Origin: a virus
Virus record (IMG/VR): IMGVR_UViG_3300037247_000376
Location: 1 to 35,290 of that record
DNA length: 35,290 nt
Reading direction: 5' to 3' (one strand)
Below are positions 15,299 to 26,399 of this stretch, piece after piece. Every line of letters starts with the position of its first letter. Position 1 is the stretch's first letter. The notes under the pieces were generated by a model that did not search any database, had not been told where the DNA came from, and was given only the letters and a program-made list of their open reading frames with translations. Position numbers and translations under genes: made by a program.

Positions 15299-15328
15299 TT
15301 ACTCACTCTGCTCAGGAAGGAAGTCAAG
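15299..15328 (-). promoter_or_regulatory. Putative promoter for packaging/late genes
   Basis: Minus-strand TTGACT (15328-15323) in the context CGCTTGACT, followed after 18 bases by GAGTAA (15304-15299). The -10 box is weak. The same CGCTTGACT stands at -35 of the divergent promoter at 15372, making a 9-bp inverted repeat (15322-15330 and 15372-15380). Confidence 0.4.
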
Positions 15329-15374: not shown

Positions 15375-15404
15375 TTGACTTTCGCCGTATGCATGACGTA
15401 TGCT
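15375..15404 (+). promoter_or_regulatory. Promoter and CGTATGC direct-repeat operator of the wHTH gene
   Basis: TTGACT (15375-15380), 18-base spacer, TATGCT (15399-15404). Two copies of CGTATGC (15386-15392 and 15397-15403) lie 11 bp apart, one helical turn, the second over the -10 box. The element resembles the palindromic operators at 17196 and 25830, so the downstream regulator may control itself and both other promoters. Confidence 0.65.
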
Positions 15405-15429: not shown

Positions 15430-15711
15430 ATGAAGATCGCCGATGTTCCCCTCAAGAATCGCGTGGGCAAAACCCGCGCACTGGTGCTCGAATACCTAGA
15501 GGAGCACCCGGATGAGGTCTTCCGCATCCGCCAGTCTGAGGAGATCGCCCAGGCCATCGATGCCCCGCAGCGCACGGTGGAGCACGCGCTCTGGTTCCTC
15601 CAGCATGATGGGTTGATCAGCAAGGCCAAATTCGACCGAAATATCTGGTACGGGTCCCACGCCGCTATCGAAAGTCTCACGTCACTTCATCCCGTCACGA
15701 TCCGCCTCTAG
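15430..15711 (+). CDS. Winged-helix transcriptional regulator (candidate)
   Basis: 93 residues, ATG at 15430 with GAAAGGAG upstream; an upstream in-frame ATG at 15400 lies inside the -10 region and is rejected. The protein starts MKIADVPLKNRVGKTRALVL. The part from EEHPDEVFRIRQSEEIAQAI through DAPQRTVEHALWFLQHDGLI to SKAKFDRNIWYGS has the helix, recognition helix and wing order of a small winged-helix domain. It is the only single-gene plus-strand unit in the virus. Its 3' end overlaps the methyltransferase 3' end by 30 bases on the opposite strand. The best guess is the regulator that binds the shared GTATAC-type operators. Confidence 0.65.
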   Translation: MKIADVPLKNRVGKTRALVLEYLEEHPDEVFRIRQSEEIAQAIDAPQRTVEHALWFLQHDGLISKAKFDRNIWYGSHAAIESLTSLHPVTIRL

Positions 15712-17180: not shown

Positions 17181-17208
17181 TTGACAACGTCTGCGGTATA
17201 CGTATACT
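17181..17208 (+). promoter_or_regulatory. Strong promoter with GTATACGTATAC operator
   Basis: TTGACA (17181-17186), 16-base spacer, TATACT (17203-17208). A perfect 12-bp palindrome GTATACGTATAC (17196-17207) covers the -10 box. It drives the five-gene plus-strand unit starting at 17232. The arrangement is matched base for base in spacing by the minus-strand promoter at 25856. Confidence 0.8.
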
Positions 17209-17231: not shown

Positions 17232-17447
17232 ATGAGGCGGCAGCACTACCTCGCAAAGGCCGCGTTCAACGGCGACGCCTTCGCCTTCTTCTCCTGCTAC
17301 GACAGCCGACGGAAGGCCGTCAAGGCGCTGCGGGACTTCCGGGCGAGCCTGGTCCGCGCCGGCGAGCGGGACCCGCTCAAGATCTTCGTCGAGGCCTGCT
17401 CCTGCCCGGACGCCTCGATCCATCCCGTCGCCGAGGTTCCAGCGTGA
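17232..17447 (+). CDS. Unknown small protein, first gene of the plus-strand unit
   Basis: 71 residues, ATG at 17232 with GAAAGGAGGCTCACCG upstream, 24 bases after the -10 box. The sequence MRRQHYLAKAAFNGDAFAFF continues with DSRRKAVKALRDFRASLVRA and ends with FVEACSCPDASIHPVAEVPA. It is a mixed alpha/beta small protein with several aromatics and three cysteines; no family is recognised. Its strong promoter and operator suggest expression early or under the regulator's control. Confidence 0.65.
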   Translation: MRRQHYLAKAAFNGDAFAFFSCYDSRRKAVKALRDFRASLVRAGERDPLKIFVEACSCPDASIHPVAEVPA

Positions 17448-17632
17448 AGCGGCTCGAGATCACCCTGAAGAACGGCGTCCAGCTCGAGGTCGACGTCGTC
17501 GACGACTGGACCCTGACGACGCAGGCGGGCTCGACCGTCGCTATGAAATGGGGGCACCCGCCGAAGGGCCGCCGGATCCTCCATCGACTCCTCCTCGAGG
17601 AGATCGTGACGATCGTCGAGGTCCGGCCGTGA
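17444..17632 (+). CDS. Unknown small beta-rich protein
   Basis: 62 residues from the GTG at 17444, which overlaps the previous stop (GTGA). It reads MKRLEITLKNGVQLEVDVVD, then DWTLTTQAGSTVAMKWGHPP and HRLLLEEIVTIVEVRP. Alternating strands suggest a small SH3-like or barrel fold. No motif identifies a function. Overlap with both neighbours indicates coupled translation. Confidence 0.6.
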   Translation: MKRLEITLKNGVQLEVDVVDDWTLTTQAGSTVAMKWGHPPKGRRILHRLLLEEIVTIVEVRP

Positions 17633-17772
17633 GCGCCCGCGGCTGGCTCTACAGGATCGGGCGCCTGATGGGCGACGTCACCGCCGTGAAGAAGCGGAAG
17701 GTCGCCCGGCGTGTCGGCCGACGCGCAGCCGGTAAGGCGACCGGCGGGCTGTTCCGGAGGATCTTCGGATGA
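17629..17772 (+). CDS. 47-residue basic protein
   Basis: GTG at 17629 overlaps the upstream stop (GTGA) and its TGA overlaps the next ATG. The protein is strongly basic: MSARGWLYRIGRLMGDVTAV, KKRKVARRVGRRAAGKATGG, LFRRIFG. The size, charge and amphipathic ends suggest DNA or membrane association; neither is demonstrated. Confidence 0.5.
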   Translation: MSARGWLYRIGRLMGDVTAVKKRKVARRVGRRAAGKATGGLFRRIFG

Positions 17773-18023
17773 CCGGACTCGGCTACACCGTCAACAAGGA
17801 GTCGAAGGACGGCGGCGTCCGGCTCATCGAGGAGATCACGATCCAGCACGTTTCCCTCGATCGCTGCCCGACCTGCCATCAGCTCCTCGTGACCTGCCTC
17901 GGCTGCGGCCGGCACCGCGGCGCCTGGAAGGACCCGACCAGCCGGTCCGACTACTGCTCCGCTCGTTGCCGTGCGACGGCGAAGAAGCGCCGGCACCGTG
18001 GGAGAAACCTCACCCAAACGTAA
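17769..18023 (+). CDS. Zinc-ribbon protein
   Basis: 84 residues, ATG at 17769 overlapping the previous stop (ATGA). Cysteine pairs appear in RCPTCHQLLVTCLGCGRHRG and in SDYCSARCRATAKKRRHRG. The pattern (CxxC, CxxC-x-x-H, CxxxC) could hold one or two zinc ions, and the basic tail fits nucleic-acid contact. The N-terminal strand part (MTGLGYTVNKESKDGGVRLI) is unassigned. Part of the coupled plus-strand unit. Confidence 0.65.
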   Translation: MTGLGYTVNKESKDGGVRLIEEITIQHVSLDRCPTCHQLLVTCLGCGRHRGAWKDPTSRSDYCSARCRATAKKRRHRGRNLTQT

Positions 18024-18559
18024 GACGTCAATGGGGCATCGCCCTGATAGCCGGCGGCCTGGTCGCTCTCGCCGCCGGCTTCGTCCTGCCAGGACCAGGC
18101 GCCAGCCTCGAGGCGTCGCTTCCCTCGCCGGTATATGACTGGCCGGTATATGAGTCCCCGGGTGTAGGTCCCATCACACCCACGCTGGCGCCTACGCCCG
18201 AAGCGCTGATCGCAAGCGCATCCGAGGTCGTCCCCGTTACCACTCCGACGCTGCCCGCAGGAGTTAAGGCGCTTGTCGCCGTCACCTTCTACGCCTGCGA
18301 GGGACCGCGCGGCGGGTTCTGCGGCACGATGGCCGGCGGCGCCACGGTGTACGAGGGCGCCGCAGCCTGCGGCTATGCCTGGCAGCTCGGGGCGAGGTTC
18401 ACCCTTGAGGGCGACCCGACAGGGCGGATCTACGTCTGCGAGGACCGCGGCCTCGGGCCGTGGCTGTGGGCCGATATCTTTTTCTGGAAGGAGGCCGACG
18501 GCTACCCCTGGCAGGCGGTCGTCGGCACGTCGGCCGTCACGTCCATCGTCTCTCGGTAG
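17966..18559 (+). CDS. Membrane-anchored 3D/RlpA-like domain protein; start uncertain
   Basis: The frame has one membrane span (WGIALIAGGLVALAAGFVLP), a proline/threonine-rich stalk (PITPTLAPTPEALIA), and a C-terminal domain of about 90 residues with VTFYACEGPRGGFCGTMAGG, AAACGYAWQLGARFTLEGDP and IYVCEDRGLGPWLWADIFFW. The Asp-Arg-Gly and 'W-DIFF' elements resemble 3D or double-psi barrel domains seen in peptidoglycan-active proteins; four cysteines could form disulfides outside the cell. The only in-frame start is a TTG at 17966 with no ribosome-binding site (197 residues). An ATG at 18031 is one base out of frame; deleting one G from ATGGGGC would give a normal signal-anchor start. It may modify the wall or exclude other phages. 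Confidence 0.65.
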   Translation: MPCDGEEAPAPWEKPHPNVRRQWGIALIAGGLVALAAGFVLPGPGASLEASLPSPVYDWPVYESPGVGPITPTLAPTPEALIASASEVVPVTTPTLPAGVKALVAVTFYACEGPRGGFCGTMAGGATVYEGAAACGYAWQLGARFTLEGDPTGRIYVCEDRGLGPWLWADIFFWKEADGYPWQAVVGTSAVTSIVSR

Positions 18560-18738
18560 GCGACGGAGAACCGCGAGAGCGCCACGGCCGCCTCCTCGGC
18601 CGTGGGCGTGAGGCGACGGATCGCCTCGGTGAGCCGCCACACGTCCATGAAGGCGATCTTCGCCTCGACGACCGGATCCCGTCGCGGTCCTGCGAACAGG
18701 TAGCCGATGAGCCAGCCCTTCGCCAGCGGCCAGATCAT
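18502..18738 (-). CDS. Unknown small protein, last gene of the second early unit
   Basis: 78 residues, ATG at 18738. The 3' end overlaps the plus-strand 3D-domain gene by 58 bases, tail to tail. The N-terminus MIWPLAKGWLIGYLFAGPRR is hydrophobic and could contact the membrane. The rest is helical (VWRLTEAIRRLTPTAEEAAV). No recognised domain. No terminator hairpin with a U-run is visible at this convergent junction. Confidence 0.5.
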   Translation of the reverse strand: MIWPLAKGWLIGYLFAGPRRDPVVEAKIAFMDVWRLTEAIRRLTPTAEEAAVALSRFSVAYRETMDVTADVPTTACQG

Positions 18739-18763
18739 CGTCGTCGCCTTAGTAGGCGCCCGC

Positions 18764-18973
18764 TCATATCAACATCGCCTGGTGAGAATCCCGTCGGCCC
18801 GCCTGCACCTTAGCCTCTATGCCCGCTTGCCACTTCCTGACTCTCCCGACGACCTCGGGTGAAAGCATCGGCCCTTCGCCGAAAGTATAGCGGCATTTCA
18901 AACAGGTGTACCACCATCGCCGGGCACCAAACCCAAATTGGAATAGGTAGGTCCAGCAACTACACCCCCACAT
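18764..18973 (-). CDS. Zinc-binding small protein
   Basis: 69 residues, ATG at 18973, overlapping the RuvC-like gene by 14 bases. A likely four-cysteine site is formed by MWGCSCWTYLF and WWYTCLKCRYTFGEG, with many tryptophans and tyrosines, followed by a helix (VVGRVRKWQAGIEAKVQAGR). The pattern looks like a zinc ribbon. The function is unknown. Confidence 0.55.
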   Translation of the reverse strand: MWGCSCWTYLFQFGFGARRWWYTCLKCRYTFGEGPMLSPEVVGRVRKWQAGIEAKVQAGRRDSHQAMLI

Positions 18974-19496
18974 AATGTCCCGCCTTCCATAGCGACCAGC
19001 CGGCGAGCGCGATCACGGCGGCGTCGGCTGCGTCTGGATCCTTGATGAGATCCGGGTCCACGCCCCGCTGCTCGAGCAGATGGCGAACGAGCTCCTTCGT
19101 CAGGTAGCGGCCAGGCCCGCCGCTCACCTTGCCGATGATGAGCCAGCGGGCCTCGTTGACGTCGATCTCCTCCGATCGGCAGTCGGCACCGTTCGCCGCC
19201 AGATGGACGGCCGCCCTCGACTGAGCGAGCGCCTCAACCGTGCTCTGCTTCGAGCGAGGAGATCCGCGAGCCCACGCGCCCGGGCTCTCAATTAGCACTA
19301 GGGTCGCCGTCGGGATATCCGGGTCGCGGATATCTGCGTTGAGCGCCATCTGAGCGGCATCGTAGAGTAGCTGCAACTTCGCCGGCAGCGGCAGCTTGAC
19401 CGGCACCCGACATACGCTGGTCCAGACGATGACGTCGTCCCGGCAGATCGCGAGGCCCGACTTATTGAGAGCCGCGTCGACGCCGAGGACGATCAC
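18960..19496 (-). CDS. RuvC-like Holliday junction resolvase
   Basis: 178 residues, ATG at 19496, overlapping the upstream gene by 4 bases. The RNase H-like catalytic residues fit RuvC: Asp7 in MIVLGVDAALNKSGLAI, Glu in ATLVLIESPGAWARG, and the C-terminal acid pair in DPDAADAAVIALAGW. VNEARWLIIGKVSGG and YLTKELVRHLLEQRG match the segments between. The enzyme would cut branched recombination or replication intermediates before packaging, in line with the RecT-like protein in the other early unit. The absence of an own polymerase suggests that replication relies on the host. Confidence 0.82.
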   Translation of the reverse strand: MIVLGVDAALNKSGLAICRDDVIVWTSVCRVPVKLPLPAKLQLLYDAAQMALNADIRDPDIPTATLVLIESPGAWARGSPRSKQSTVEALAQSRAAVHLAANGADCRSEEIDVNEARWLIIGKVSGGPGRYLTKELVRHLLEQRGVDPDLIKDPDAADAAVIALAGWSLWKAGHYVGV

Positions 19497-19771
19497 GCCG
19501 GCGGGACTTCGCCGGCGACGGGACTCCGATCCTCACGCCGGCCGACCTCCGCGTCGAGGCGCTCCTTGCGGACGGACGCCTTCTTCTGCGCCGCCTTGAG
19601 ATCCGCGTCGCTGAGATCTCCGTACCTGCTCGTGGCGGCGCCGCTCGTCCTGTACTCCTTCCGGGCCCTTTCGACGTCGCCGATTAGCTTAGCCCGACCG
19701 TTGTCGCGCGCCCACTCGAGGAAGCGCGCGCTCAGCACGTAGGCTCCTTTCAGCGATCCCGGTCGTGTCAT
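19493..19771 (-). CDS. Unknown helical basic protein
   Basis: 92 residues, ATG at 19771 overlapping the previous stop (ATGA); longer starts are shadow. Sequence MTRPGSLKGAYVLSARFLEW, DNGRAKLIGDVERARKEYRT, DADLKAAQKKASVRKERLDA. Largely helical and basic with an acidic/proline tail. No family is recognised. It is coupled to the resolvase gene. Confidence 0.55.
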   Translation of the reverse strand: MTRPGSLKGAYVLSARFLEWARDNGRAKLIGDVERARKEYRTSGAATSRYGDLSDADLKAAQKKASVRKERLDAEVGRREDRSPVAGEVPPA

Positions 19772-19983
19772 GGTCCCGCTCCTTTCCTCCGCCTCGCCGG
19801 CGGACGCTTGCACGTCACCCAATGGTTCACCCATCCGTACTCCGATCGTGGGTGATCGAACGGAGCTCGGCTATCCTTCTTCGTCAGTCCCCACACGATC
19901 AGAGCGCCGCAGGTCCGGCAGGACGTTATCGCCGCGCCGGCCAGGACGACGCCGTAGACGTGGGCCGCGAGCGGCTCACTCAT
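19768..19983 (-). CDS. Small Cys/His protein
   Basis: 71 residues, ATG at 19983, overlapping neighbours by 4 bases each side. It contains AITSCRTCGALIVWGL, then FDHPRSEYGWVNHWVTCKRP, that is CxxC followed by H...H..C, a plausible zinc site. The C-terminus is basic (RRRKGAGP). One of several zinc-knuckle proteins in this unit; the role is unknown. Confidence 0.6.
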   Translation of the reverse strand: MSEPLAAHVYGVVLAGAAITSCRTCGALIVWGLTKKDSRAPFDHPRSEYGWVNHWVTCKRPPARRRKGAGP

Positions 19984-20195
19984 AGGGTTCGCCCCTCTCT
20001 CGACGCCCGAGCGTAGGCGTCACAGTTATTGCAGAGCAACTCGTCCTCGGAAAGGTGATCGACAAGATGCCACCTGCCGCGCAGGCTGAGTCCACAATAA
20101 GTCGAGGCCGCCCCTGCCCCGCGATTCAGATGCGCCCGTCGCCCTCGACCGACTTTGACAGTCTGGTAGAGTACGCCGCCGATGAGGACGCTCAT
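19980..20195 (-). CDS. Small Cys/His protein
   Basis: 71 residues, ATG at 20195 overlapping the nuclease stop (ATGA). Begins MSVLIGGVLYQTVKVGRGRR and contains STYCGLSLRGRWHLVDHLSE and LLCNNCDAYARA. This C...H..H...CxxC arrangement resembles the 'zinc-binding' small proteins of actinobacterial phages and mobile elements. The function is unknown. Confidence 0.6.
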   Translation of the reverse strand: MSVLIGGVLYQTVKVGRGRRAHLNRGAGAASTYCGLSLRGRWHLVDHLSEDELLCNNCDAYARASREGRTL

Positions 20196-20710
20196 CGCCA
20201 GATCGCCAGCGCAGACTCGATGCCGTGGGCTGAGCTCAGCGGCGCCTCGTGGTTCGGCGCACGATACCCGGGCGTGATCGGCATCGCTGCGACCTCGTCG
20301 CCGGTAAAGTAGCCGTGTATCGTCGCCCACTCCTCGCCCTCGTGCGGTTGCACCGGCACGTAGTAGTCGGCCCGCGGCCGGCGCTGAAACTCCTCGGCGT
20401 TGACGAACAGCCGGAACGACTGGACCGGCACCGATTTGACGTCGATCACGAACTGCCGACCGGATCCGGCGGTAACGCGGAAGTCGCCGCCTGGGTCGGA
20501 TCTGCCGCGGGTGTTGCCGAGCGGCTCGTAATCGATGCCGCGATCGCCGAGCCAGCCCTCGAAGATCAGCTCGCAGAGCGGCCCGCGGTAGTACCGCCCA
20601 CCGACCTCGAAGCCGGTCGGGTTCGCCGTCTGTGGCAGCCGTTGGAGAATCAGCTGCTCCCGCTGCTGGGCGACCGTCTTCATGTACTCCTCGATCCGCC
20701 AGCGCGTCAC
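20192..20710 (-). CDS. PD-(D/E)XK-like nuclease (candidate)
   Basis: 172 residues from a GTG at 20710 overlapping the upstream stop. The core shows a restriction-endonuclease-like pattern: GPLCELIFEGWLGDRGIDYE, then SDPGGDFRVTAGSGRQFVID leading to VKSVPVQSFRLFVN. Asp in GGDF and the D-x-K of IDVKS fit the D...(D/E)xK active site. Following strands (RADYYVPVQPHEGEEWATIH, GYFTGDEVAAMP) are normal for this fold. Possible roles are recombination-linked exonuclease, host-DNA degradation or genome processing. The match is from motif order only. Confidence 0.6.
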   Translation of the reverse strand: MTRWRIEEYMKTVAQQREQLILQRLPQTANPTGFEVGGRYYRGPLCELIFEGWLGDRGIDYEPLGNTRGRSDPGGDFRVTAGSGRQFVIDVKSVPVQSFRLFVNAEEFQRRPRADYYVPVQPHEGEEWATIHGYFTGDEVAAMPITPGYRAPNHEAPLSSAHGIESALAIWR

Positions 20711-20997
20711 TCCTTCGCCACCTTCGCGATCTTGAAATTGATCTGGATCCTCGAGGCCTGGTCGAACTCGACGTGCCGGCTCTCCTTCGGGCTCACCGAG
20801 ATAGCGAACCGGCCGCAGCGGAAGGCGCCCTCCGTGCCGAGCTCCTTCACCCTCGCCTGCGCCGCCTTCGTCTTCTCCCGATAGGTCGCGTGAGCCTCCG
20901 CCACGCTCTCCCGGGCCTCAAGGAACGCCTCGAGCTCCGGGTCCTGGATCACCTTCTCGTCGAACGCCATCTGCCGGCGCCTACGTACCCTTGCCAT
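20707..20997 (-). CDS. Unknown protein, coiled-coil
   Basis: 96 residues, ATG at 20997 with AAAGGAGGCGACAG upstream, so this start is preferred over the ATG at 20970. Sequence MARVRRRRQMAFDEKVIQDP, FLEARESVAEAHATYREKTK, then a beta segment RCGRFAISVSPKESRHVEFD and QINFKIAKVAKE. Helix plus a short sheet; no recognised family. It precedes the nuclease and could be its partner. Confidence 0.55.
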   Translation of the reverse strand: MARVRRRRQMAFDEKVIQDPELEAFLEARESVAEAHATYREKTKAAQARVKELGTEGAFRCGRFAISVSPKESRHVEFDQASRIQINFKIAKVAKE

Positions 20998-21244
20998 CTG
21001 TCGCCTCCTTTATCAGCTGCTCGCGTAGTGTGGAGTCAACGTCGATTAGCATCCAGCCGATCAGCGCCGCCTCAAGGTCGCACCAGGTCGGACACTCCTC
21101 CTCGGCACAGAGGTTAGCGTACTCAAGGGCGGCCTCGATATCGCCGTCGTCAATGTTGAGGTCGTCGAGAACGACGTGTAGTTTCCCGCCCGTCGGATGC
21201 CGGATGTAGTAGTCCTGGATCAACGGCCGTAGAGGGCTGCTCAC
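20981..21244 (-). CDS. Unknown acidic protein
   Basis: 87 residues from the GTG at 21244, overlapping the previous stop (GTGA); longer in-frame starts are shadow. It contains QDYYIRHPTGGKLHVVLDDL, NIDDGDIEAALEYANLCAEE and ECPTWCDLEAALIGWMLIDV. Acidic, with three cysteines (CAEEECPTWC) that might bind a metal. No function is assigned. Confidence 0.55.
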   Translation of the reverse strand: MSSPLRPLIQDYYIRHPTGGKLHVVLDDLNIDDGDIEAALEYANLCAEEECPTWCDLEAALIGWMLIDVDSTLREQLIKEATDGKGT

Positions 21245-21654
21245 GACACCTGCTCCTGCCGCACCTGGTGGATCTTCATCCGCCGGCGAAGCCAATCGCT
21301 GCGCTCGTCCCGCTCCCGCTCCTCACGGCTCAGCGCCGCCGGCTCACAGCCCTCGCGGACCATCCAGACGAGCAGGCCGGGTCCGACGTCCTGAGCGGCC
21401 TCTCGCGCCTCCTGGTAGGCCTCGAGCGCCGACCATATCCTGCCCGGGTCAAAGTCGCGCATGATGATCCGAGCGACGCGGACGCCTTCGTTGCGCAGCG
21501 CCTCGAGGAGCTCGTCGTCGCTCGCGGGTGCGGGCGAGGGGGGGGGGGGATCCGTATCCCGATTAACTACTGTGTTTAGTAATGGTGGTTGTACCCCCGC
21601 CTCCCCCCCAGGCGGGCGCGCGCGGGAGACGTAGCGACGGGTAGATGAAGGCAT
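21241..21654 (-). CDS. Possible replication-associated protein with 12-C tract
   Basis: 137 residues, ATG at 21654 with CCGAGAGGAGCTTTCGCT upstream. It is the first gene after the promoter at 21770. The N-terminal 45 residues are low in complexity and proline-rich, encoded across a run of 12 C (minus strand) giving DPPPPSP. The helical part follows: SDDELLEALRNEGVRVARII, WSALEAYQEAREAAQDVGPG, LLVWMVREGCEPAALSREER. This resembles C-terminal segments of phage replication initiators, but no HTH or helicase motif is present, so the link is weak. Length changes in the tract would truncate the protein. Confidence 0.55.
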   Translation of the reverse strand: MPSSTRRYVSRARPPGGEAGVQPPLLNTVVNRDTDPPPPSPAPASDDELLEALRNEGVRVARIIMRDFDPGRIWSALEAYQEAREAAQDVGPGLLVWMVREGCEPAALSREERERDERSDWLRRRMKIHQVRQEQVS

Positions 21655-21741
21655 AGCGAAAGCTCCTCTCGGTTGGGTGAGCGAGAGCGGTTGACGGTCT
21701 GCTACGCCAGCGTTTAATATTGGTTCGGAACCGTGAGGGTG

Positions 21742-21770
21742 ATTATCCATCGCCCGTCCGCCAGTGTCAA
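21742..21770 (-). promoter_or_regulatory. Strong promoter of the second early unit
   Basis: Minus-strand TTGACA (21770-21765), exact 17-base spacer, GATAAT (21747-21742). Just downstream, GGTTCGGAACC (21722-21732) is an inverted repeat that may be an operator near the transcription start. The leader to the ATG at 21654 is about 80 bases. Confidence 0.8.
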
Positions 21771-21782
21771 CCCTTTTGTTGA

Positions 21783-21813
21783 CGAAACGGCCCGATCTCT
21801 ACAGGTCGGGCCG
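21783..21813 (-). terminator. Terminator between the two early units
   Basis: An 8-bp stem CGGCCCGA/TCGGGCCG (21788-21795 with 21806-21813), 10-base loop, followed on the minus strand by TTTCGTC, directly after the stop at 21832. On the plus strand the same stem is followed by GCGGCTTTTTGG, so weak termination in that direction is possible too. Confidence 0.7.
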
Positions 21814-21831
21814 GCGGCTTTTTGGCCCCCT

Positions 21832-22233
21832 TCAAGCGTCCTCCGGCGGCGGTGCGAGCATCTTCGGCAACGTGCTACGCAGCTGGTCGTAGACGGTGCG
21901 CCCCTCGCTCGTGAGAAGGTACGGGAGAAACTCGTGCTCGAGGTCAACGAGGCCGAGCTGGACGGCTTCGATCTTCGTCTTGAGATACCAGTAGAGCGCC
22001 CTCATCAGCCGCCGGCGCTGGCGTTCGTCCTCGAAAGTGACCTCGATTCGGAAGGAGAAGGGCTGGCTCTCCCACTCAACGACGGCCTCGAGGCTTTCGC
22101 GGCCGGGGTAGCCGACGGTCGACGCCCAACGGAAACCCTTCGCGCCAACCTTGACGAGGAGATCCTCGACATCCTGGCGGGACTGTGCAGGGCTGACCTT
22201 CGTCTCGGAGTAGGACCTGAGTGTCGTCGGCAT
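21832..22233 (-). CDS. Unknown protein, last gene of the first early unit
   Basis: 133 residues, ATG at 22233, sharing bases with the previous TAA. Mixed alpha/beta: VEDLLVKVGAKGFRWASTVG, LEAVVEWESQPFSFRIEVTF, RRRLMRALYWYLKTKIEAVQ, then EFLPYLLTSEGRTVYDQLRS. The pattern resembles small DUF-type phage proteins encoded beside recombination genes. The terminator follows 19 bases after the stop. Confidence 0.6.
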   Translation of the reverse strand: MPTTLRSYSETKVSPAQSRQDVEDLLVKVGAKGFRWASTVGYPGRESLEAVVEWESQPFSFRIEVTFEDERQRRRLMRALYWYLKTKIEAVQLGLVDLEHEFLPYLLTSEGRTVYDQLRSTLPKMLAPPPEDA

Positions 22234-22568
22234 TAGCAGAACCCTTCGTCGGTTCTCGGGACTCCTAGTGGCCGCTCGGGCGATCTGTCTGGCGTCTCGT
22301 CTGGCCGCGTTATGCCTACCGGCGGCTCGGGATCCACGCCCTCGATCGTGAGGAGGATCGGCTGCAGCAACGACCCGAACGTGAACTGCCGCACCCTGAG
22401 CCGGGCGCCGTCGGCGATAGCTCGACGCTCAGCATAGGTCAACTCCCACTCCGACAGGACGTCGCCGTCATCGGTCACGAGCGCCGGCAGCGGCCGATAC
22501 TCCGGCTGGTTCGCGGTGAAGACGATCGGCCGACCTTCGCCGCCCGATCGTGGAGTAACAGGGTTCAC
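22233..22568 (-). CDS. Unknown protein
   Basis: 111 residues from the GTG at 22568, overlapping the upstream stop (GTGA). Central part: LVTDDGDVLSEWELTYAERR, AIADGARLRVRQFTFGSLLQ, PILLTIEGVDPEPPVGI. The tail is proline/arginine-rich (PDETPDRSPERPLGVPR). No domain is recognised. Confidence 0.55.
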   Translation of the reverse strand: MNPVTPRSGGEGRPIVFTANQPEYRPLPALVTDDGDVLSEWELTYAERRAIADGARLRVRQFTFGSLLQPILLTIEGVDPEPPVGITRPDETPDRSPERPLGVPRTDEGFC

Positions 22569-22786
22569 GCTGCGCCTCCTTGCCGTCGTCTCTCGACGAC
22601 CTGCTCCTGGATTCTCGCTCTCATCTGGTCGTACATGATCCGGCCGGTGTCGAGCATGGCGTTGATCTCCTCGACCGTGGCGCCGACCGGGACGCCGCTC
22701 AGGACCAGCCCGACGCTGGCGCTCTCGTAGTTGCCGAGGTTGATCTTGCGGTCGATCGTGACGGCAATGCAGGGTTCGTTACTCAT
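22565..22786 (-). CDS. Unknown protein with beta core and C-terminal helix
   Basis: 73 residues, ATG at 22786, overlapping the previous gene by 8 bases. Sequence MSNEPCIAVTIDRKINLGNY, ESASVGLVLSGVPVGATVEE, then INAMLDTGRIMYDQMRARIQ. The 'K-NLGNYES' motif is typical of small phage proteins encoded near single-strand annealing or ssDNA-binding genes. A DNA-associated role is possible but unproven. Confidence 0.6.
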   Translation of the reverse strand: MSNEPCIAVTIDRKINLGNYESASVGLVLSGVPVGATVEEINAMLDTGRIMYDQMRARIQEQVVERRRQGGAA

Positions 22787-23000
22787 GGCCGCCCTCCCGC
22801 CTTGAGACGGGAAGACAACCGGCCCGCGCCATCTCCCGCCCCATCTTGCGATAGGCATCGAAGCACTCGTCGCGATCGCGATGGAACAGGAGGCCCGCCC
22901 GCTGAACCCTGGCCTCGGAGTCCTCGATCGGCTTGCCGCATTGGGCGCAAAGCGGCCGGTTGGCGCGATAGACGCCCTTGGAGGTCGGCGGGTCCGTCAT
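22779..23000 (-). CDS. Zinc-knuckle protein
   Basis: 73 residues, ATG at 23000 overlapping the previous stop (ATGA). It carries RPLCAQCGKPIEDSEARVQR followed by LLFHRDRDECFDAYRKMG: CxxC plus H...C, a plausible LIM-like or treble-clef zinc site. Role unknown. Confidence 0.6.
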   Translation of the reverse strand: MTDPPTSKGVYRANRPLCAQCGKPIEDSEARVQRAGLLFHRDRDECFDAYRKMGREMARAGCLPVSRREGGHE

Positions 23001-23491
23001 GATGGCCGTCTCACATTCTCGACGTCCGGCGGCATCGGCGTCGCCGGGCTGATCTGGACCCACGTCGACGCCGGCTGCTCGTCGATCAACTCCTTCATCG
23101 CCTCGCCGGGCAGCTCGAGGGCCTCGACCTTCGTCACGCTCAGCTCGGATGCGCAGAGCAGGAGTGTCAAAACGTCTCCGTGGCTCAGCTCGTGGTCGTC
23201 GATGACCTGCGGTAGCCTGTCGATGCGGACCTTGCGGTTCCTCCGGGAGCGCCAGCCTGGCGCCCCGTACTGCGTCCGCATAGACTTAACGCCGGCCTTC
23301 GTGAGGAGCTCGCCGAGGGCCGACTTGTACATACCGCCGATGGCCGTCCAGGCCTTGATCGCTGCGGCCGCCTCGTTCGCCTTGTGCGTCAGCCACTCGA
23401 ACGGGTCGCCGACGCCCTCCGGCAGCTGCAGGATCTCGCCCGTTTCTTCGTCGATGATGAGATCACCGACCTTGATCGCGTCGTCTGTCAC
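22997..23491 (-). CDS. Unknown early protein
   Basis: 164 residues from the GTG at 23491 (GTGA overlap). Begins MTDDAIKVGDLIIDEETGEI and has a long helix (LTHKANEAAAAIKAWTAIGG) then KSMRTQYGAPGWRSRRNRKV and SHGDVLTLLLCASELSVTKV. Its size and place just after recT-type genes suggest a DNA-metabolism accessory protein (host-nuclease inhibitor or resolvase partner), but I recognise no family. Confidence 0.55.
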   Translation of the reverse strand: MTDDAIKVGDLIIDEETGEILQLPEGVGDPFEWLTHKANEAAAAIKAWTAIGGMYKSALGELLTKAGVKSMRTQYGAPGWRSRRNRKVRIDRLPQVIDDHELSHGDVLTLLLCASELSVTKVEALELPGEAMKELIDEQPASTWVQISPATPMPPDVENVRRPS

Positions 23492-23664
23492 TGTGGGCCT
23501 CCTTCCTCCGGGTACTTCCTGAGAAACTCCTTGAGCTCCGTCGCGCCGTGCTTCTGGCAGTAGTCGCCGATCGGAGCGTTCCGGGTGCTATGAAGTGTAA
23601 CGGTCGCCTTCCGACCGCAGCGCCCGCACTTCGGCTCGTGGATCGATCGCAAATGCGCGGCCAT
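23488..23664 (-). CDS. Zinc-binding small protein
   Basis: 58 residues, ATG at 23664 with CTGAAAGGAGGCGACGCTG upstream. MAAHLRSIHEPKCGRCGRKA, then PIGDYCQKHGATELKEFLRK: CxxC followed by CxxH, a four-ligand zinc site. The stop overlaps the next GTG. The role is unknown. Confidence 0.6.
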   Translation of the reverse strand: MAAHLRSIHEPKCGRCGRKATVTLHSTRNAPIGDYCQKHGATELKEFLRKYPEEGGPQ

Positions 23665-23679
23665 CAGCGTCGCCTCCTT

Positions 23680-24018
23680 TCAGTCGGGATACTTTCGTGG
23701 CTGCCAGCGATCCATCCGGTCGGCCAGCTCGTCGATATGGTCGGCGTCCAGCGCACGGACCTGCGGCTGCGGATGGTGGCGGACGACCTGCGCGTACTGA
23801 TGCACCAGCTCTCCCGCGAGGACGTCCTGGCCGCGTAGCAGGAACAGCGGTTCGTTCTTCGGGAAGCCCAGCGCATCCAACTGCGTCAGGGCGTGTTCTA
23901 CATCATCCAGGTGAGCACCGTTCGCCTTCAACTCCGCTAGGATTTCGCCCAGCACCTTCCGCGCCGGCGCGACCGCCCGCTCAGGGTACAGCCTGATGTA
24001 CTTCTGATCGTTGCTCAT
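23680..24018 (-). CDS. Unknown early protein
   Basis: 112 residues, ATG at 24018 with AGGAGGAACG upstream and a 4-base overlap with the previous gene. Helical N-terminal half (MSNDQKYIRLYPERAVAPAR, VLGEILAELKANGAHLDDVE) and a C-terminal half with LFLLRGQDVLAGELVHQYAQ and DHIDELADRMDRWQPRKYPD. The second half resembles proteins with a 'F-LRG-D' motif of uncertain role in phages. No firm assignment. Confidence 0.6.
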   Translation of the reverse strand: MSNDQKYIRLYPERAVAPARKVLGEILAELKANGAHLDDVEHALTQLDALGFPKNEPLFLLRGQDVLAGELVHQYAQVVRHHPQPQVRALDADHIDELADRMDRWQPRKYPD

Positions 24019-24191
24019 CGTTCCTCCTGTTCTGCCAGCGCCCTCACCAGCTGCAAGGCCTCGCTCGCGTTCTTATCGGCTTCGCTACGATTACGCTCGG
24101 CGTCCTTTGGCGGGATCATATCGAGGCCTCGGATCTCGAGCCGGATGCTCTCGAGCGCGAGTACCAGGGCGAGGAGCTCACGCGCCCTCAT
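24015..24191 (-). CDS. 58-residue helical protein
   Basis: ATG at 24191, overlapping the RecT-like gene by 14 bases. MRARELLALVLALESIRLEI, RGLDMIPPKDAERNRSEADK, NASEALQLVRALAEQEER. Mostly helical and likely a small dimer. The longer in-frame region to 24356 is antisense to recT-type coding and is rejected. No family is recognised. Confidence 0.55.
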   Translation of the reverse strand: MRARELLALVLALESIRLEIRGLDMIPPKDAERNRSEADKNASEALQLVRALAEQEER

Positions 24192-25185
24192 CGGTGGGTG
24201 CCTCCTCCTCAGTGTCCGGCTGAAGTGGACGCTCTGGCTCCGGCGGCGGTCCGGGATCCTGCCGGCCGCGGATATCCGCCTCGAGCTGGTCCGCCATATC
24301 GGCGACGATCTGGACGGGCGCCTGCTTCGCCTTGCCGGCGCGGGCGTAGGCCTCATCTTTCAGCGCGCCCTCGCGGTCCGGGACCTTGAAAAACTGGTGA
24401 ACCGCGGCGCGGTCCATCCCGGCCTCGCTCGCGATCGACCACAGCCGCGACCAGTCGAGGCCGTTCTCTGACGTCGCCGCAGACTTCGCAGGCGGCTCCG
24501 CCCTGGTCGACGCCTCCTCGATCGTCTGCCCGGCGTCGGGCGGCCCAATCGCCGGCGCCTCGCTACCCTCGATCTCCTCCGGCGGAACCTGCCCGACCAT
24601 CGTCGGCCCGGCGCGAACGTCGCCGAGATCCAGGCGGAGGAGCAGGTCGTTGAACGCCATCCGCAGGACGCGGACGGTCGCCTGCTTCATCGCCATATCC
24701 CACGGATCCTCGACGATGTGCCGGACCTTTGCGTTCGGCTTCCGCTCGAGTAGCTCTCGCTCCGCCTTCGTCGGCATCGTCATCCGCTGCGGCACGATCG
24801 CGTGACGGCGAAAGGTCTGAGGCTCATCCTCCGGCGTCGCCCTTCGGGTGATCGAGGCGAAGGCAAGGAAGTCCTCGGTGGGGACGCGGAGCATTTCGTA
24901 TTCCTCGGGCGTACCGACCCGGGCGTCAATGAGGCCGACCAGTTGGCCGGGTGCCTCCCGGTTGATGATATGGAGCCAACCCTCGCGCTCAATGTAGAAC
25001 CGCCCCTGAATCGCCGTACAGTGGCTAAGGAAGGGGTTGAGGCCGTAAAGGTTAGCGAGGCCTAGAAACTGGCCGATGCTCAGGCCGGCGTTAAATTCCT
25101 GCCCGAAGCGGCTCATCAGCGCCGTCCGAGTCTCGGTCGTGTCGCGGACGATGACCGCCCGCTCCGTCTGGTTCTTCGCTGTCAT
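24178..25185 (-). CDS. recT: RecT-family single-strand annealing protein
   Basis: 335 residues, ATG at 25185 in an ATGA overlap. The core fits RecT/Redbeta-type recombinases: AGLSIGQFLGLANLYGLNPF, LSHCTAIQGRFYIEREGWLH, IINREAPGQLVGLIDARVGT, and EDPWDMAMKQATVRVLRMAF, where the last block matches the 'A-T-A--RA-R-AF' helix. The C-terminal 140 residues are acidic and proline-rich with a small helical module (RLWSIASEAGMDRAAVHQFF), as in several actinophage RecTs. The protein would anneal complementary single strands in recombination-dependent replication. A partner exonuclease may be the PD-(D/E)XK-like protein at 20.2 kb. Confidence 0.75.
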   Translation of the reverse strand: MTAKNQTERAVIVRDTTETRTALMSRFGQEFNAGLSIGQFLGLANLYGLNPFLSHCTAIQGRFYIEREGWLHIINREAPGQLVGLIDARVGTPEEYEMLRVPTEDFLAFASITRRATPEDEPQTFRRHAIVPQRMTMPTKAERELLERKPNAKVRHIVEDPWDMAMKQATVRVLRMAFNDLLLRLDLGDVRAGPTMVGQVPPEEIEGSEAPAIGPPDAGQTIEEASTRAEPPAKSAATSENGLDWSRLWSIASEAGMDRAAVHQFFKVPDREGALKDEAYARAGKAKQAPVQIVADMADQLEADIRGRQDPGPPPEPERPLQPDTEEEAPTDEGA

Positions 25186-25367
25186 GCTTTACTCCGTTCG
25201 TACTCGCGCACCAGCTCGACCTCCTCCGGGAATCCCTTCGCTAGGAGCTCGCGATGGTGCTCGTCAGCCTTCCAGATCAGGCGCAGCAGCTTGGCTGTGA
25301 ACCAGCCGAGCTCCTCGTGCGCCAGAATGTCGTCGACGTTCTCGCGATCGTGAGCGGAGAGCGTCAC
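25182..25367 (-). CDS. Unknown small acidic protein
   Basis: 61 residues from the GTG at 25367, overlapping the previous stop (GTGA). It reads MTLSAHDRENVDDILAHEEL, GWFTAKLLRLIWKADEHHRE, LLAKGFPEEVELVREYERSK. Helical, with a 'F-AKLLRLI-KAD--H---L---FP-EV' pattern frequent in short phage early proteins. The function is unknown. Confidence 0.65.
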   Translation of the reverse strand: MTLSAHDRENVDDILAHEELGWFTAKLLRLIWKADEHHRELLAKGFPEEVELVREYERSKA

Positions 25368-25561
25368 GGCGCAGCCCAATGCGGACAGTCGGGATCCTCG
25401 CAATACTCGGACGCGTATCCGTGCTCGCAGAGCGGTTCCGCCGGCGGGATCCAGGCGTCGCGCAGCGCCTCGAGGGTCGCCCGCCAGGCCCGGCTCAGTC
25501 GCCGTCGTAGACGGGACCTCCGGCTCGTGCTAAGCTGCTTCGTAGGTGATGGATCTGTCAT
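25364..25561 (-). CDS. Small basic/zinc protein
   Basis: 65 residues, ATG at 25561 with GAAAGGAGGCATAGGACCC upstream. Basic N-terminal half (SRRSRLRRRLSRAWRATLE) and a C-terminal cluster CEHGYASEYCEDPDCPHWAA (C..H....C....C..H), a possible zinc site. Second gene of the first early unit. Confidence 0.6.
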   Translation of the reverse strand: MTDPSPTKQLSTSRRSRLRRRLSRAWRATLEALRDAWIPPAEPLCEHGYASEYCEDPDCPHWAAP

Positions 25562-25585
25562 GGGTCCTATGCCTCCTTTCGTCAG

Positions 25586-25611
25586 GGCCGCCGCTGCCGT
25601 AGTCGGCGGCC
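25586..25611 (-). other. Hairpin between first two early genes
   Basis: Perfect 8-bp stem ggccgccg/cggcggcc (25586-25593 with 25604-25611) and a 10-base loop. It has no U-run on either side and could be an attenuator or mRNA stabiliser between the regulator-like gene and the next. Confidence 0.45.
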
Positions 25612-25621
25612 TTGTCGGTTC

Positions 25622-25795
25622 TCAGCCAACCCTCGCCGATGGCCGAGGCCGCGGTAGACGTTCACCAAAGGGCGCCCCGGCGCTGTCGGCCCACAGCTTG
25701 AGCGCCTCCGAGAACAGCCTCGACGCGACGAGCTGCGGGTTGGCGTCAAGGATCTTCTGGTCCTCCTTGCTCACGTAGATCGTTTTGTTCGGCGT
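25622..25795 (-). CDS. EXLDI/ribbon-helix-helix-like regulator with ACG start
   Basis: First gene of the early unit. The frame reads (M)PNKTIYVSKEDQKILDANP, then QLVASRLFSEALKLWADSAG and ends in an Arg/Pro tail, 57 residues. 'NKTIYVS-ED' followed by a helix is the opening of EXLDI-type and related ribbon-helix-helix-like proteins. The ribosome-binding site GGAGAGGAGGGCA ends seven bases before an ACG (25795-25793), the expected start position, but no ATG, GTG or TTG is there. The first ordinary start is a GTG at 25774, inside the first strand and without a ribosome-binding site. An ACG start, or a recent ATG-to-ACG change, would be unusual for a gene under a strong promoter. Confidence 0.6.
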   Translation of the reverse strand, partial: TPNKTIYVSKEDQKILDANPQLVASRLFSEALKLWADSAGAPFGERLPRPRPSARVG

Positions 25796-25828: not shown

Positions 25829-25856
25829 TGTATACGTATGCTGCTAGGGTTGTCAA
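25829..25856 (-). promoter_or_regulatory. Strong early promoter with GCATACGTATAC operator
   Basis: Minus-strand TTGACA (25856-25851), 16-base spacer, TATACA (25834-25829). The element GCATACGTATAC (25841-25830) covers the -10 box. Spacing and operator placement are the same as in the plus-strand promoter at 17181-17208. Confidence 0.8.
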
Positions 25857-25997: not shown

Positions 25998-26399
25998 CTA
26001 CCGCACGGCCCGGAGTAGGCTGCGGTGATAGTGAAGGGTCCGGCGCTCCGCACCAGTGAGCGGGCCACCCTTGTTCACTAGGAGCAGCACCCTCCGTAAG
26101 GAAACGGGCCGGGCGGCGGCGAGCCGGCGGAGCTGGTCGCGGGCCTCGAGCAGCGGCTCCTCGTCGGTGTAGGGCTGGTCCGGCCTAGCGGCGCGGTCCA
26201 ACCGCCGATGCTTGCGTCGCCGCCGCCACAAGCTGTCACGCGCCGCCGCAGCCAGCGTCAAGGCGAAGCCAAACTTCCGCGGCCGGTATCGAATGAACCG
26301 GATCCACGCCTCCTGATAGACGTCGGGCCGCTCGTGCGGCTCAGCTACCGACGCAGCGATGATGCGCGCCGCATCGTGCAGCTGCTCCGCCGGCAGCAT
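25998..26399 (-). CDS. Sigma-factor-like protein, last gene of late operon
   Basis: 133 residues, ATG at 26399. Region 2-like features: VAEPHERPDVYQEAWIRFIR, followed by FGFALTLAAAARDSLWRRRR and KHRRLDRAARPDQ, as in ECF or sigma-70-like proteins (helix with the 'D--QE---R' pattern, then the Arg-rich -10-binding helix). The C-terminal half (LRRVLLLVNKGGPLTGAERR, TLHYHRSLLRAVR) fits a degenerate region 4 helix-turn-helix. Phage sigma-like proteins direct late transcription, so its place at the end of the lysis genes is notable. It could alternatively be a small DNA-binding terminase-like or ArpU-like regulator. Confidence 0.55.
   Translation of the reverse strand: MLPAEQLHDAARIIAASVAEPHERPDVYQEAWIRFIRYRPRKFGFALTLAAAARDSLWRRRRKHRRLDRAARPDQPYTDEEPLLEARDQLRRLAAARPVSLRRVLLLVNKGGPLTGAERRTLHYHRSLLRAVR

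Follow-up and report, generated by a model that had tools for sequence, protein, structure and literature searches.

The window analysed here, a 35,290-nucleotide stretch of viral DNA, carries a 127-bp repeat common to both of its ends. Because a terminal repeat of this kind is typical of k-mer assembly, the window probably represents an entire circular phage genome, about 35,163 bp long. Its host is probably a member of the Chloroflexota: the phage lysin has its best relative in this group, and the family of the wHTH protein also comes from it; the best relatives of the two proteins occur in one and the same MAG, RBG_16_64_32. We labelled genes "early" or "late" from gene content. The late genes lie on the minus strand and comprise a DUF2924-like ORF, a probable small terminase with a LuxR-like HTH, the large terminase, portal, protease, major capsid, tape measure, lysin and holin. 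The frame of the large terminase (around 14230, minus strand) has no ATG, GTG or TTG near its start, with an ATG present in the adjacent frame. Neither a tyrosine nor a serine recombinase was found (no PF00589 or PF00239 match in the whole record), which agrees with the first-pass annotation, where no integrase had been visible; tRNA and Rfam scans gave no matches. Over the whole window GATATC occurs 21 times and CATATG not at all, the expectation from base composition being 3.4 for each. Outside the late genes, and where the late operon ends, the following genes and units were delineated, those behind the promoter P1 being judged by codon-position GC and, for all five, having a weak zf-HIT match at most as a family name.

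15430-15711, plus strand: wHTH gene, 93 aa, directly behind the promoter P3
15682-16932, minus strand: fusion of a ParB domain and an N6/N4 DNA methyltransferase
17232-18559, plus strand: unit behind P1, with five small ORFs (17232-17447, 17444-17632, 17629-17772, 17769-18023 and 18020-18559)
18502-25795, minus strand: unit behind the promoter P2, DNA metabolism, early
18960-19496, minus strand: RuvC-like protein in the P2 unit
24178-25185, minus strand: Bet-like annealing protein in the P2 unit (weak match)
25622-25795, minus strand: RHH-like ORF, 57 aa, the first after P2, with a strand NKTIYV and two helices
25998-26399, minus strand: sigma-70-like ORF (weak matches) with features of regions 2 and 4, closing the late operon just upstream of P2

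The last of these ORFs may encode a late regulator of the phage's own. To describe the control regions of these units, we give the promoters and their associated elements as follows.

17181-17208, plus strand: promoter P1, TTGACA, N16, TATACT, matching the consensus at 11 of 12 positions
17196-17207, plus strand: putative operator of P1, GTATACGTATAC, a perfect 12-bp palindrome over the -10 box
25829-25856, minus strand: promoter P2, TTGACA, N16, TATACA (N18 and TACACT being equally possible)
25830-25841, minus strand: putative operator of P2, GCATACGTATAC, a palindrome with one mismatched pair, over the -10 box
15375-15404, plus strand: promoter P3 of the wHTH gene, TTGACT (15375-15380), N18, TATGCT (15399-15404), consensus 9 of 12
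15386-15403, plus strand: operator-like element of P3, CGTATGC at 15386-15392 and again at 15397-15403
15302-15327, minus strand: putative late promoter, TTGACTTCCTTCCTGAGCAGAGTGAG, lacking the palindrome, pointing away from P3 and placed about 40 bp ahead of the first late gene

P1 and P2 lie on opposite strands, 8.7 kb apart, and have TTGACA-N9-GYATACGTATAC in common: P1 reads TTGACA-ACGTCTGCG-GTATACGTATAC-T and P2 reads TTGACA-ACCCTAGCA-GCATACGTATAC-A. The first-pass annotation had described one module at 17181-17208 (plus) and 25856-25829 (minus) with nine bases between the -35 box and the palindrome, and this is exact in both. When the record was searched for TTGACA-N8-10-GYATACGTATAC, P1 and P2 were the only two matches, and the reversed control pattern gave none. 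The flanks of the two sites, at 24-26% identity, are no more alike than unrelated sequences are, and a recent duplication of a promoter cassette is thereby ruled out as the origin of the 27-bp likeness. Other promoter-like sites lack the palindrome, namely one at 21770 (minus strand; 11 of 12 consensus positions) and the late element at 15327 (minus strand).

P3 carries a looser copy. The two CGTATGC copies, 11 bp apart, that had been claimed for a third promoter are present there, just upstream of the wHTH gene, P3 and the start of the late operon facing in opposite directions. The first reading had overlooked that positions 15391-15403 read GCAT-G-ACGTATGC, a palindrome of the P2 type with one inserted base. 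P3 likely belongs to the same putative operator set as P1 and P2, less certainly than these two belong together; since its copy is degenerate (one base too many, or else two half-sites in direct repeat at a distance of 11 bp), it may not bind the same protein. The three promoters head the plus-strand unit, the minus-strand DNA-metabolism unit and the wHTH gene, respectively, as had been proposed.

The frequency of these elements was compared with several chance expectations. The hexamer GTATRC occurs 13 times in the genome: six copies make up the P1, P2 and P3 clusters, and the other seven are single and inside coding regions. Exactly three clusters, defined as two GTATRC hexamers within 15 bp, are present on the 35.16-kb circle, one at each of P1, P2 and P3. 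In 300 dinucleotide shuffles of the genome the mean was 0.037 clusters, none of the 300 had two or more, and the 12-mer arose in none. Similarly, local shuffles of each promoter region produced a GTATRC cluster in 0.05-0.07% of cases. In a stricter control, the -35 and -10 boxes were fixed and the upstream half alone was counted (the downstream half also being the -10 box); per promoter, an extra GYATACG then appeared in about 0.012% of the random spacers, and the excess is therefore not merely a consequence of a TATAC -10 box. Avoidance of GTATAC or TACGTA was rejected as an explanation, both occurring at about the expected frequency. By the shuffle, local and spacer controls together, the common cis-element claimed for P1 and P2 stands well above chance, with a probable variant at P3. 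Given its rarity in shuffled sequence, its unrelated flanks and the lack of the palindrome at other promoter-like sites, the P1/P2 module is very probably functional.

Which protein might recognize it? The leading candidate is the wHTH protein, whose core gave weak matches to MarR/ArsR-type profiles (best 17.6 bits, against an NCBIfam cutoff of 55). By sequence, this core is homologous to an unnamed Chloroflexota family with the pattern MKI...PDEVF.YRD...SALxFTLWxL...GLI.K...YFG..AI..L and without a Pfam match; a four-sequence profile of the family found matches in 18 of the 393 genomes of the Chloroflexota group. The closest relative, L135, lies in RBG_16_64_32 (39% identity, E 3.3e-10). Three chromosomal relatives (L135, L151 and L153) have a PIN-domain gene, scoring above the Pfam cutoff, directly 3′ of them, the others standing alone, and the chromosomal family is a candidate antitoxin family of VapBC-like pairs. 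The GTATAC palindrome was found in none of the promoters of the chromosomal relatives. The third helix of the phage protein, PQRTVEHALWFL, departs in the recognition-helix region from the family consensus KxSALxFTLWxL, so a changed operator would be expected. The AlphaFold model of the protein is poor (mean pLDDT 42.6).

The other candidate is the 57-aa product of the first ORF after P2, which is by eye ribbon-helix-helix-like. Its predicted model has helices at residues 10-18 and 20-38 (pLDDT about 85) and leaves the N-terminal strand region free, the strand being unformed in the monomer. No family match was obtained in any library searched, and a structural search with the model found no PDB match; two genome matches considered as homologues were rejected, one lying in a non-coding frame and one being confined to the proline/arginine-rich tail. 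The first-pass label "EXLDI-like" had to be dropped: the N-terminal PNKTIYVS stretch resembles EXLDI proteins, but TIGR04342 gave no match to this protein at E 1 or even E 10, nor any in the whole record. The frame has normal codon-position GC and no ATG, GTG or TTG at its start; an ACG at 25795 follows a good Shine-Dalgarno sequence. This frame and that of the large terminase have either non-standard starts or assembly errors.

The late promoter beside P3 proved to be conserved elsewhere. Its sequence, TTGACTTCCTTCCTGAGCAGAGTGAG, is identical at 26 of 26 positions in the phage contig L061 (1268-1293, plus strand), where the neighbouring proteins have diverged (methyltransferase 34% and DUF2924 protein 54% identical), and a relaxed scan of IMG/VR matched the element only in this contig. 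The spacer bases are conserved as strictly as the -35 box, which suggests that an activator may bind here or that a dedicated sigma factor may be used. L061 has no wHTH gene at the element, and its methyltransferase gene ends inside it; the wHTH gene and P3 were thus either inserted beside an old late promoter or lost from L061. As a conserved element, the late promoter appears stronger than the palindrome of P1-P3. Searches of IMG/VR with the wHTH, RHH-like, Bet-like, portal and large-terminase proteins found no relatives, the same method found no wHTH relatives in the genome contigs, and no close relative of the phage turned up in the phage, viral and genome collections searched. The methyltransferase fusion is widespread among phage contigs (best 58% identity, in L019 and L020), and the palindrome is absent from these diverged relatives (80 loci). 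Sixteen viral-contig stretches matching TTGAC-N9-11-GYATACGTATRC were rejected as chance-like: they differ in base composition and lack a P1/P2-like promoter context or a regulator gene.

These observations provide the basis for a model of early gene control. We favour, at a little less than even confidence, the view that the palindrome is the operator through which one phage repressor, in all likelihood the wHTH protein, acts on P1, on P2 and on its own P3; binding, repression, the wHTH protein as binder and the timing are all inferred. Repressors classically sit over the -10 box of standard sigma-70 promoters, and this placement favours repression over activation. We predict that a repressor bound to GYATACGTATRC over the -10 box would exclude RNA polymerase, silencing the plus-strand unit of small ORFs at P1 and the minus-strand DNA-metabolism unit at P2, and that through the weaker, interrupted copy at P3 it would limit its own promoter. 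Made early from P3, the wHTH protein would shut off the early units and itself as infection proceeds, and the divergent late promoter at 15327, without the palindrome, would stay free. As no integrase was found, early shut-off is likelier than a role as a lysogeny repressor. The wHTH protein is preferred over the RHH-like protein because its own promoter carries the element and because it has an identifiable wHTH family; a point against it is that the RHH-like gene immediately follows one of the two sites that are best preserved.

That position is also what recommends the RHH-like protein as repressor of its own operon and of P1, with the P3 element as a weaker target or a coincidence, a reading that we consider doubtful yet worth serious attention. 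Its pattern NKTIYVSKEDQKIL...SRLFSEALKLWADS is RHH-like by eye, its model leaves the N-terminal strand region free ahead of the helices, and GTATAC-GTATAC can also be read as a tandem repeat of a 6-bp palindrome, tandem palindrome repeats being a layout used by RHH tetramers. However, RHH operator repeats usually measure 7-12 bp, so a 6-bp repeat is tighter than the usual spacing; the protein has no family or structural match, its ACG start makes expression uncertain, and P3 is poorly explained. In the literature we found no RHH protein with a described GTATAC operator, nor, for this group of hosts, any obvious precedent.

Alternatively, the palindrome might be the preferred extended -10 region of a host or phage sigma factor and not an operator at all, as its overlap with the -10 box and the weak sigma-70 matches of the ORF at 25998-26399 would allow. 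This is improbable, since the sites at 21770 and 15327 do without it, the -35 and -10 boxes are standard sigma-70, and sigma recognition needs neither the dyad symmetry nor the upstream half. It is quite improbable that a host transcription factor binds the palindrome and was borrowed by the phage: the host is probably one of the Chloroflexota, whose regulators are little known, but none of the 13 records tested, the Chloroflexi MAG G013 among them, gave a match, and the exact site is thus unused there. Very unlikely, finally, is coincidence, at least for P3, by which P1 and P2 would have converged on a TATAC-type -10 box and the P3 half-sites would have arisen by chance. The P3 site is indeed imperfect, and about 4% of whole-genome shuffles hold one GTATRC cluster somewhere; however, three promoters jointly with clusters had no counterpart in the 300 shuffles, and the spacer-only control speaks against chance at each promoter.

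The preferred reading, then, looks like an ordinary small repressor circuit, headed by the wHTH protein, that switches early genes off. A more speculative history, which we regard as rather unlikely, would have the phage take an antitoxin-like wHTH protein from its Chloroflexota host, lose or never have the PIN toxin, change the recognition helix, and make the protein the repressor of its own early regulon, the gene having been inserted with the methyltransferase gene on one side and, on the other, a late promoter that is far older and strictly conserved. To our knowledge, transcription control in Chloroflexota phages is almost undescribed; the site, the candidate proteins and the conserved late promoter would together give this phage, in which no integrase was detected, a compact early/late switch whose regulator would be linked to a chromosomal family adjoining PIN-domain genes.

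Parts of this arrangement resemble known systems. From the MarR/ArsR superfamily the phage wHTH protein is set apart by scores below every curated cutoff and by a putative operator of just 12 bp. Another parallel is with the VapBC-type antitoxins of PIN toxins; antitoxins usually repress their own promoter: the three chromosomal relatives that directly precede a PIN-domain gene have the toxin-antitoxin layout, whereas the phage gene has no adjoining PIN gene (its next downstream neighbour being the convergent methyltransferase gene), stands alone beside the late operon and is off the family consensus in the recognition-helix region. The Cro/CI circuits of lambda and its relatives differ in having an integrase-linked lysogeny module, a divergent cI/cro pair and an XRE-type HTH in place of a wHTH or RHH protein; here, single operators are spread over 10 kb. 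As in those circuits, a small DNA-binding protein is predicted to act through palindromic operators over early promoters including its own, and palindromes that are putative operators do lie over the promoters of both early units and, in degenerate form at P3, over that of the presumed repressor.
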